DNA from: Nocardioides sp.
GTDB taxonomy: Bacteria; Actinomycetota; Actinomycetes; Propionibacteriales; Nocardioidaceae
Assembly (NCBI GenBank): GCA_025924815.1
Contig: JAICHQ010000006.1
Span: 1-64,000, forward strand
DNA: 64,000 nt
Reading direction: 5' to 3'
The notes under the pieces were generated by a model, which saw nothing but the letters and a program-made list of their open reading frames with translations, had not been told where the DNA came from and ran no database searches. Made by a program: the position numbers and the translations under genes. Shown here piece by piece: positions 379-16,114 of the stretch. Numbering within the stretch: the first letter of the stretch is position 1; each line of letters opens with the position of its first letter.

Positions 379-1743
379 GTGACCCACCAGGCATCTGCGA
401 CGACCGGCCGGCAGCCCGCTGCCGGCCGGTCGTCGGTCTCCCCGCTCCCCGCGGCCGGCCGGCCCTCGGGCACGACCCGGACCCTGCTGAGGGAGGACGG
501 CGGCGTCGTCCGGCGTACGACGCTGCCGAGCGGCCTGCGGATCATCACCGAGCAGGTTCCCGGCCAGCGCTCGGCGACCATCGGCGTCTGGGTGGGCGTG
601 GGCTCCCGCGACGAGGGGGCCACCGTGCACGGCTGCTCCCACTTCCTGGAGCACCTGCTGTTCAAGGGCACCCCCGAGCGGTCGGCGCTCGACATCTCGA
701 TCGCGCTCGACGCGGTCGGCGGGGAGTTCAACGCCTTCACCGCCAAGGAGTACACCTGCTTCCACGCGCGCGTCCTCGACCAGGACCTCCCCCTCGCGGT
801 GGACGTGCTCGGTGACATGGTCACCTCGTCGCTGATCACCGAGGACGACGTCGACGCCGAGCGCGACGTGATCCTCGACGAGATCGCGATGCACGACGAC
901 GACCCCGACGACGTCGCCCACAACCTCTTCGCGTCGCTGGCCTGGGGCGACTCGCCGCTGGGCCGTCCCATCGCGGGCACCGCCGAGACCATCGAGGCGA
1001 TGACCCGCGACCAGATCCGTCGCTTCTACGCCCGCCACTACCGGCCCGAGCGGATGGTCGTCTCGGTCGCGGGGAGCGTCGACCACGCGAAGGTCGTCCG
1101 CCTCGTGCGCACGGCCTTCTCGCGGCGGGACTTCCTGGCCGGCACCGCACGACCGGTTCCGGCGCGACAGACCGACAAGCCGCGCAAGGTCGGCACCGGC
1201 ATCGCCGAGGCGAGCCGGCAGTTCGAGCAGGTCAACGTCGTGCTGGGGGTGCAGGGCCTGACCCGGTCCGACGACCGGCGGTTCGCCCTCGGCGTCCTCA
1301 ACGCCGCCCTCGGCGGCGGCACGTCGAGCCGGCTCTTCCAGGAGGTGCGTGAGAAGCGCGGCCTGGCCTACTCCGTCTTCTCCTTCGCCAGCCAGCACGT
1401 CGACGCCGGACTGGTCGGGGTGTCCGTCGGCTGCCTGCCGAACAAGCTCGAGCAGGTCCTCGACGTCGTCAGGGCCGAGCTGGCCAAGATCGCCCAGGAC
1501 GGCATCGACGCCGAGGAGCTCACTCGCGGCAAGGGACAGCTCAAGGGCGGGCTCGTCCTCGGTCTCGAGGACTCCGCCTCGCGGATGACCCGGCTCGGGA
1601 AGTCCGAGCTGGTCGACGACGAGCTGCTCGCCATCGACGAGGTGCTCGCACGCATCGACGGTGTCACGCTCGACGACGTACGCATCCTGGCGGCGGAGCT
1701 GTTCTCCCAGCCGGAGATCCTGGCGATCGTCGGGCCCCGCTGA
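379..1743 (+). CDS. M16 family zinc metallopeptidase (pitrilysin-like)
   Basis: HFLEH (HxxEH) zinc motif, TLPSGLRIITE N-terminus; follows pnp as in many actinobacteria. GTG start at 379 is likelier than the ATG at 301. Confidence 0.92.
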   Translation: MTHQASATTGRQPAAGRSSVSPLPAAGRPSGTTRTLLREDGGVVRRTTLPSGLRIITEQVPGQRSATIGVWVGVGSRDEGATVHGCSHFLEHLLFKGTPERSALDISIALDAVGGEFNAFTAKEYTCFHARVLDQDLPLAVDVLGDMVTSSLITEDDVDAERDVILDEIAMHDDDPDDVAHNLFASLAWGDSPLGRPIAGTAETIEAMTRDQIRRFYARHYRPERMVVSVAGSVDHAKVVRLVRTAFSRRDFLAGTARPVPARQTDKPRKVGTGIAEASRQFEQVNVVLGVQGLTRSDDRRFALGVLNAALGGGTSSRLFQEVREKRGLAYSVFSFASQHVDAGLVGVSVGCLPNKLEQVLDVVRAELAKIAQDGIDAEELTRGKGQLKGGLVLGLEDSASRMTRLGKSELVDDELLAIDEVLARIDGVTLDDVRILAAELFSQPEILAIVGPR

Positions 1744-1904
1744 GCCTGGATCCCCCGATTTTCGCCTGCTGCGCGCCACCAGCCGGGGCGCTGGCTGCGT
1801 TGTGGACGCTCAACGGACAACCAGTACGACGCTCGCGCCTACGCCTTGCCATCACGCCCACCTGGTGACGCTCGCGACGCCGCAAATCGGTGGACCCAGC
1901 CTGA
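1743..1904. repeat. Copy 1 of a 162-bp imperfect inverted-repeat (hairpin) element
   Basis: Aligns without gaps to 14774..14935 with about 12 mismatches by eye; ends are inverted repeats (AGCCTGGATCC.CCGATT / AATCGGTGGACCCAGCCT). Confidence 0.9.
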
Positions 1905-14142: not shown

Positions 14143-14711
14143 CCTTCTGGGACGCCGTCACCGGCCGGACCAAGCCCAAGCGGGCGAACCTCGACTCGCT
14201 GTTCCTGGTGCCGTCGGCGGCGGTGACGCTACAGACCGCGGCCGGGTTCACGCCGACCGGCACCGGCTCGGTGTGCTTCCGCGCACCCGAAGGCGCGGCG
14301 TACCAACAGACCCAGGACGAGGTCGTGGCCCTGTTGCGCGACGACGCCGACAAGCCCCACGTCCAGGTGCACCGCGACGACTTCGGCTTCACCTGGCTGG
14401 TCGTCGACCGCGTCGACGACGACGTCGAGGGGCTGTGCACCGACCTGCACGCAGTCAACACGTCGTTGGAGGAGCAGGGCTTCGCCACCGGGCTGCTGTG
14501 CTCGCTGGTGCCGTTCCACGACTCCGCCGGCCGCACCGCCGGGCTGGTCTACCTCTACAAGCAGGGCACGTTCTACGCCTTCGCCCCCACCGGCCCGAAG
14601 ACCCGCGACAACCTGCTCGAGATCCAGCTCCGCGACACCCTCGCCGGCGAGCTGCCCATGGAGCAGGACCTCCAGCGCTGGCTCGCCCTCTGGGGAGCCC
14701 CCGGCCTCTAG
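14139..14711 (+). CDS. pspAB: PspA-associated protein PspAB
   Basis: 'VTFWDAVTGRTKPKRANLDSLFLVPSAAVTLQ'; GTGA overlap with htpX. Confidence 0.87.
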   Translation: MTFWDAVTGRTKPKRANLDSLFLVPSAAVTLQTAAGFTPTGTGSVCFRAPEGAAYQQTQDEVVALLRDDADKPHVQVHRDDFGFTWLVVDRVDDDVEGLCTDLHAVNTSLEEQGFATGLLCSLVPFHDSAGRTAGLVYLYKQGTFYAFAPTGPKTRDNLLEIQLRDTLAGELPMEQDLQRWLALWGAPGL

Positions 14712-14773
14712 TCCGACTCGGCGTGCGAAGCATCAGGGAACGACGTCGGGACACCAGAGAGGTGGCAGACCTC

Positions 14774-14935
14774 AGCCTGGATCCACCGATTCTCGCCTGC
14801 TGCGCGCCACCAGCTGGGGCGCTGGCTGCGTTGCAGACGCTCAACGGACAACCAGTACGACGCTCGCGCCTGCGTCTTGCCAGCACACCCACCTGGTGAC
14901 GCTCGCGACGCCGCAAATCGGTGGATCCAGGCTCA
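14774..14935. repeat. Copy 2 of the 162-bp imperfect hairpin element
   Basis: Perfect 18-nt terminal inverted repeat AGCCTGGATCCACCGATT / AATCGGTGGATCCAGGCT; ungapped match to 1743..1904. Confidence 0.92.
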
Positions 14936-16114
14936 GTCGCGGTGGGAGCGGCCGGGGAGGTCGAGCATCCGCTGAAGCGCGATCCGGGCGTGGTGCTCCG
15001 TGTCGGGGTCGACCGAGACCCGGTTGACCACGACACCGTCGCCCAGCGACTCCAAGGCCCAGACCAGATGGGGGAGGTCGATCCGGTTCATCGTCGAGCA
15101 GTAGCACACGCTGCGGTCGAGGAAGAGGATCTCCTGCTCCGGGTGCTCACGAGCCAGGCGCTGCACGAGGTTGAGCTCGGTGCCGATCGCCCACACCGAC
15201 CCCGCCGGGGCGGCCGCGACGGCCGCGATGATGAACTCCGTCGACCCGACCAGGTCGGCCCGGGTCACGACGTCGTGGGTGCACTCGGGGTGCACCAGCA
15301 CCCGCACTTCGGGCCGCTTCCGCCGCAGCTCGTCGACGACGTCCGGGGAGAACCGACCGTGCACGGAGCAGTGCCCCTTCCACAGGATCATCCGGGCCGC
15401 CGCGAGCTCCTCCGGCGCCACCCCGCCCCCGAGGCGGCGGGGGTCCCACACGACGCACTCGTCCAAGGTCAGCCCGAGCTTGAGGACGGCCGTGTTCCGG
15501 CCCAGGTGCTGGTCGGGCAGGAACAGCACCTTCGCGTGAGGCACCTGGCCGAACGCCCACTCCAGGGCCACGTCGGCGTTGCTCGACGTACACACGGCGC
15601 CGCCGTGGCGTCCGCAGAACGCCTTGATGTCGGCGGAGGAGTTCATGTAGGTGATCGGGACGACGCTCTCGGCGATGCCGGCGGCGGCCAGTGCGTCCCA
15701 GCAGTCCTCGACCTGCACCAGCCGCGCCATGTCGGCCATCGAGCAGCCGGCCGCGAGGTCGGGCAGCACCACGATCTGGTCGGGCGAGGTCAAGATGTCG
15801 GCCGACTCCGCCATGAAGTGGACGCCGCAGAAGACGATGTACTCCGCCCCGGGTCGGGCCGCGGCGTCGCGCGCGAGCTTGAAGGAGTCGCCGGTGACGT
15901 CGGCGAACCGGATCACCTCGTCGCGCTGGTAGTGGTGACCGAGCACGAAGACCCGGTCGCCCAGCGCCTCCTTCGCCGCTCGTGCCCGGGCGACGAGGTC
16001 GGGGTCGGACGGCACCGGCAGGTCGCCCGGGCACTCCACCCCGCGCTCGGCGTTCAGGTCGGTGCCGCGGCCGAGCGGGAGCAGGGGTAGGTCCACGGTG
16101 CTCATGGGCGCCAT
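14933..16114 (-). CDS. nadA: Quinolinate synthase
   Basis: 'VLGHHYQRDEVIRFADVTGDSFKLARDAA', VHPECTHDV, conserved cysteines. Confidence 0.96.
   Translation of the reverse strand: MAPMSTVDLPLLPLGRGTDLNAERGVECPGDLPVPSDPDLVARARAAKEALGDRVFVLGHHYQRDEVIRFADVTGDSFKLARDAAARPGAEYIVFCGVHFMAESADILTSPDQIVVLPDLAAGCSMADMARLVQVEDCWDALAAAGIAESVVPITYMNSSADIKAFCGRHGGAVCTSSNADVALEWAFGQVPHAKVLFLPDQHLGRNTAVLKLGLTLDECVVWDPRRLGGGVAPEELAAARMILWKGHCSVHGRFSPDVVDELRRKRPEVRVLVHPECTHDVVTRADLVGSTEFIIAAVAAAPAGSVWAIGTELNLVQRLAREHPEQEILFLDRSVCYCSTMNRIDLPHLVWALESLGDGVVVNRVSVDPDTEHHARIALQRMLDLPGRSHRD

Follow-up and report, generated by a model that had tools for sequence, protein, structure and literature searches.

Two copies of a short repeat lie within the first 64,000 nucleotides of contig JAICHQ010000006.1 of a Nocardioides sp. 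(assembly GCA_025924815.1; this whole stretch is referred to as the window), and one of them abuts the stop codon of nadA. The locus raises the question of whether the element supplies the stop codon of its neighbor, as had been proposed in an earlier note on this DNA, or came to rest at a stop codon that was already there. Our reading, to which we assign a probability of roughly 0.8, is that the repeat is a non-autonomous, MITE-like element that was moved in trans by an IS1380-family transposase, survives at stop codons by virtue of its TNA target, and carries a conserved core with exchangeable ends.

Both copies have a length of 158 bp; copy 1 is located at positions 1744–1901 between two TGA triplets (1741–1743 and 1902–1904), and copy 2 at 14775–14932 between two TCA triplets (14772–14774 and 14933–14935). 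Their equal length and ungapped match, previously described with about 12 differences, were borne out (92% identity without gaps; about 13 differences over 166 nt). The terminal inverted repeat of copy 2 is perfect, as had been claimed, but it comprises 17 nt (GCCTGGATCCACCGATT) rather than 18, because the outermost A of the 18-mer quoted earlier is part of the duplicated TNA target. The terminal repeat has four matches in the window, compared with 0.03 expected from shuffles. Two further full copies are present in the draft genome (C75:2077 and C15:8604), and each of the four is in contact with a stop codon and sits between convergent genes according to our own gene calls, which were based on a simple codon-usage score. 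The dispersed copies, the target-site duplications, and the existence of insertion sequences with like ends support the previous designation as a mobile repeat. The features of the two window copies are the following:

14772–14774, no strand: left target duplication (TCA) of copy 2 (sequence; TNA duplication across the element set, 28 of 35 identical)
14775–14791, plus strand: left terminal inverted repeat of copy 2, GCCTGGATCCACCGATT, an IS1380-type end (the IS1380 end of L358 matches with 1 mismatch in 17; others match too)
14792–14915, minus strand: conserved structured core of copy 2, minus being the folded strand (folding energies, covariation, model R1)
14916–14932, minus strand: right terminal inverted repeat of copy 2 (perfect match to the left end)
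14933–14935, minus strand: right target duplication of copy 2, the nadA stop codon TGA (sequence; nadA relatives)
14933–16114, minus strand: nadA (quinolinate synthase), the target gene, C-terminus unaltered (ORF; 29 element-free relatives)
1741–1743, plus strand: left target duplication (TGA) of copy 1, the stop codon of the M16 peptidase gene at 301–1743 (sequence; ORF)
1744–1760, plus strand: left terminal inverted repeat of copy 1 (sequence; repeat scan)
1761–1884, minus strand: structured core of copy 1 (alignment to copy 2; model R1 match)
1885–1901, minus strand: right terminal inverted repeat of copy 1, imperfect (sequence; repeat scan)
1902–1904, no strand: right target duplication (TGA) of copy 1 (sequence)

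The TCA at 14933–14935 is indeed the stop codon of nadA on the minus strand, but it was not supplied by the element. None of the 29 relatives examined from the order carries an element at this place; nadA ends in TGA in every one of them, and in all but one this codon is found at the aligned last residue. The last 12 residues are identical in several element-free relatives, including one from the same genus with 84% identity, and the comparison of C-termini that had been recommended revealed that the last codons were unaltered by the insertion. The TGA endings of the element-free homologs rule out the element as a supplier of the stop codon. Target-site duplications, also sought at the suggestion of the earlier note, were evident among IS1380-type elements: of 35 such elements, 32 are flanked by TNA on either side, and the two triplets are identical in 28. 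The conservation of the TGA in the 29 relatives, together with the repetition of the triplet at the left end of copy 2, shows that the stop predates the insertion. The nadA TGA is the duplicated TNA target and was present before the element inserted into CTGAG (nadA strand); the stop was preserved because the target duplication retained the TGA. The TGA duplication of copy 1 suggests that the M16 gene likewise had a pre-existing stop.

The association with gene ends would follow largely from the choice of target. An IS1380-family transposase would recognize the 17-bp ends and duplicate a TNA triplet, preferably inside CTNAG; surviving insertions would then come to lie at gene ends because the harmless CTNAG sites in GC-rich genomes are mostly stop codons, and each stop would be kept by the duplication. 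At the studied loci, 117 CTNAG sites can be hit without breaking a gene; 70 of these (about 60%) are stop codons and 34 are located in convergent gaps. When any TNA at which an insertion would leave genes intact is considered, stop codons account for 267 of 822. The link to stop codons and convergent pairs, originally drawn from two copies, holds for all four copies in the draft genome and extends to the family: 26 of 27 IS1380-type insertions are found at a stop codon and 16 of 27 between convergent genes (versus 34 of 117 CTNAG sites; p about 0.001), counts in which junctions may be off by a few bases and the insertions are not all independent. Target preference probably explains most of the stop association, but both 26/27 and 16/27 exceed the target expectation, an excess that could be produced by selection against other sites.

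The same excess is what one would expect of a bidirectional terminator or 3'-UTR element that is selected by the host at convergent gene ends, with a hairpin that stops transcription or stabilizes or processes mRNA and a mobility that is only incidental. The hairpin is very stable, and those of ERIC and Correia elements alter mRNA processing (PMC2229807, PMC10969869). However, the link to stop codons (26/27) is mostly accounted for by the target, and convergent gaps are not enriched for elements that combine this core with other end types. Between tandem genes, an antisense orientation of the folded strand (53 cases) prevails over a sense orientation (25 cases; p 0.002; 40 to 19 after thinning), which is the opposite of the expectation for an mRNA-end element and suggests that the hairpin is harmful within operon transcripts. 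There is also no T-tailed terminator: a scan for intrinsic (Rho-independent) terminators with a GC-rich stem and a T run found none in 14600–15100, and this candidate was rejected. In view of this evidence, we consider a host-selected terminator or 3'-UTR element unlikely.

Elements with TA-type ends are located at stop codons in about half of the cases (43/85). Elements of this type (L112, L061, L089, L118, and others) were also often encountered just upstream of start codons. Among 46 element ends situated 5–20 nt from a start codon, 27 form a −10-like TAnnnT at the junction; alongside stop codons, such start-proximal junctions are apparently another preferred location of TA targets. The rule that replaces the stop-supplying element would be that the non-genic TNA and TA targets in GC-rich genomes are largely stop codons and −10 boxes.

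The mobilization in trans by an IS1380-family transposase is suggested by the ends. Related genomes contain IS1380-family transposases flanked by AGCCTCGATCCACCGAT, AGCCCGGATCCACCGGT, GCCCTGATCCACCGA, and GCCTCGATCCGTGGAAC, with a TNA duplication in each case; the first of these ends (AGCCTCGATCCACCGAT) shows 1 mismatch in 17 to the window ends. The IS1380 ends of L358 have 0/17 mismatches to element L032 and 1/17 to the window ends, and L359, L360, L366, and L362 are likewise IS1380 transposases between ends of this kind, with TNA duplications. The autonomous transposon with shared ends that the earlier note proposed to look for is represented by IS1380 elements (L358, L359, L360, L362, and L366), but the identical 17-mer of the window is not among them. 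One IS1380 whose ends are related (agreement at 12 of 17 positions) is present in the window's own genome, and an IS-length pair of the exact window ends was absent from the ten genomes searched. It took a comparison of element ends with IS loci to uncover these parents; searches with PF01609, PF13359, and PF13340 in nine genomes of the genus yielded no parent in most of the element-rich genomes, and the tested transposase families are missing from several element-rich genomes.

Ends of other insertion sequences match other element subfamilies, namely those of IS5 (TAGGGCGTGTCTCC; L170, L354), IS1182 (TAGGAG...GCTGAACAA; L172, one end seen), and IS630 (TAGTGCCTCG...; L341); for two to three end types, no IS parent was found. 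Elements with these ends would be moved in trans by whichever IS family the ends belong to.

With its 158 bp (MITEs span 50–500 bp), 17-bp inverted repeats, dispersed copies, target-site duplication, lack of a transposase gene, and ends common to autonomous IS1380 elements, the repeat has many properties of a MITE. Miniature non-autonomous elements are derived from a single transposon family, and their interior usually, but not universally, stems from the parent by deletion; we know of none with a conserved folded core of this kind. If the repeat were an ordinary MITE, i.e., an internally deleted IS1380 whose interior is an IS remnant, its ends and target duplication would be readily accounted for. 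However, the IS loci examined contain no core (no credible match in end-matched loci; best E 0.024), elements with IS5-, IS1182-, and IS630-type ends share it, and its conservation, with covariation, extends over an order and further, which renders such an origin very improbable. A plain IS deletion derivative was rejected because the IS loci lack the core and several end types share it.

In divergent copies, an interior of about 110–120 nt stays alike, whereas the outer 20 bp or so are wholly different yet self-complementary. The single element pictured in the earlier note was correctly perceived as a mobile repeat, but its conserved, strand-specific hairpin interior and the occurrence of unrelated ends on the same core had been missed. 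An alignment of 60 sequences comprises 41 pairs, 32 of them with compensatory changes, and 92.9% of the cells are paired (covariation score 0.520 versus 0.180 shuffled). Core pairs on the minus strand include 333 G-U versus 18 A-C cells, whereas the outer stems have 67 versus 52. The minus strand is more stable in 105/105 elements, with a mean gain of about 21 kcal/mol; for the whole copy 2 element, the folding energies are −113 kcal/mol (minus) versus −90 kcal/mol. Model R1 matches both copies on the minus strand (copy 2, 14781–14926, E 6.6e-32; copy 1, 1750–1895, E 5.5e-30). The minus strand of the core is predicted to be one long hairpin with conserved internal loops, and the asymmetry of G-U and A-C cells, together with the stability of this strand, indicates that one folded strand is conserved in the core and that the ends behave as double-stranded DNA.

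In alignment A2, a near-invariant GGCAAGGCG (columns 50–60) and CAACGC.GCC (101–115) lie on opposite sides of an internal loop, an arrangement that would be compatible with a protein-binding or tertiary motif. Rfam covariance models gave no match up to E 10 at 1740–1905 or 14770–14937, and none at distant relatives. At L084, L080 (G009), and L041/L055 (G020), the copies measure about 60 bp: the core is deleted and the IS1380-type ends are intact.

Our best guess is that the core is a structured RNA, either selfish or weakly regulatory. Alternatively, the folded strand might be active in the form of single-stranded DNA, such as at replication forks or in a transposition intermediate, because G-T pairs in DNA would also give a strand-specific wobble, and the core-deleted, end-intact copies L080 and L084 look like products of slippage across a hairpin. 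The ends, however, belong to four DDE transposase families with short target duplications, for which we know of no need for a folded strand, and the antisense excess between tandem genes speaks for an effect at the transcript level; a function as single-stranded DNA therefore appears possible but doubtful.

The structured core is not bound to a particular type of end. It carries at least six unrelated end types, four of which match IS1380, IS5, IS1182, and IS630, and cores can be 88–90% identical despite unrelated ends, as in L157 and L136. A tree built from the cores of 95 elements shows 12 end-type changes (minimum 5), the exact number being soft because the tree is short on columns. These results would be in agreement with a novel kind of mobile element: a conserved structured RNA that has neither a transposase nor fixed ends and that moves among Actinomycetota by taking over, time and again, the terminal repeats of the IS family active at the time (IS1380, IS5, IS1182, IS630, or one of at least two others). 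We give this scenario about even odds. Ends may be exchanged by insertion beside an IS end, followed by a template switch across the hairpin that would place an inverted copy of the IS end on the other side of the element.

With the element as query, relatives were found in 16 of 59 related genomes, some of them via the interior alone. A pattern scan retrieved 75 stretches, mostly from Nocardioides; others were labeled Pimelobacter, Propionibacteriaceae, and Microlunatus. Within the order, 51 of 99 genomes are hit by the covariance model, with as many as 31 matches in a single genome; across the phylum, the model has matches in 7 of 119 genomes, including one of another class with 26 copies; these genome counts are approximate, since weaker matches without a proper outer stem (L373–L375, L377–L379) may not be elements. 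The topology is retained in distant copies, most of which have TA or CTAG at their boundaries. The genome of the other class (G245; loci L233–L252) has its own, IS630-like end type. The exact core pattern was not found in viral contigs, nor the element in plasmid and phage records. One locus on a contig filed under a Nostocoides MAG (L101) has flanks identical to those of a copy in the window's own genome (L003; C15) and probably represents a mis-binned Nocardioides contig.

Small palindromic mobile repeats, such as ERIC, Correia, and RUP, are well known (PMC2229807, PMC10969869). ERIC/IRU of enterobacteria is an intergenic, imperfect palindrome of 127 bp with TA termini and a stable hairpin transcript whose orientation matters (PMC2229807). 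The present element is also a short, imperfect, and intergenic palindrome predicted to form a stable hairpin, but its ends switch between unrelated types, its target is TNA or TA, its hosts are Actinomycetota, and IS parents of several end types were seen; no relation to ERIC was found in a comparison made by way of Rfam, either at the two window copies or at distant relatives. RUP of Streptococcus pneumoniae and Correia/NEMIS of Neisseria are MITE-like and have TA targets, and RUP shares its ends with IS630-Spn1 (PMC2229807); as the reviews describe them, each has one kind of end, whereas the core of the present element has at least six. Mobilization of miniature non-autonomous elements in trans is known (PMC4133298), and the likeness to these elements consists in the small size and the lack of an own transposase. 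The window copies resemble IS1380-family insertion sequences in their terminal sequence and the 3-bp TNA duplication, but they lack a transposase, and the IS loci lack the core.

In the openly readable articles searched, no description was found of this hairpin-core family or of a core shared among the ends of different IS families. The family, which spans an order and beyond and whose core persists longer than the transposon ends it carries, is apparently undescribed. With a covariance model and insertion sequences with matching ends at hand, the reading is directly testable. If the exchange of ends is real, small mobile elements do not have to originate from a single parent IS, and different transposase families can be used one after another by the same conserved, RNA-like core.
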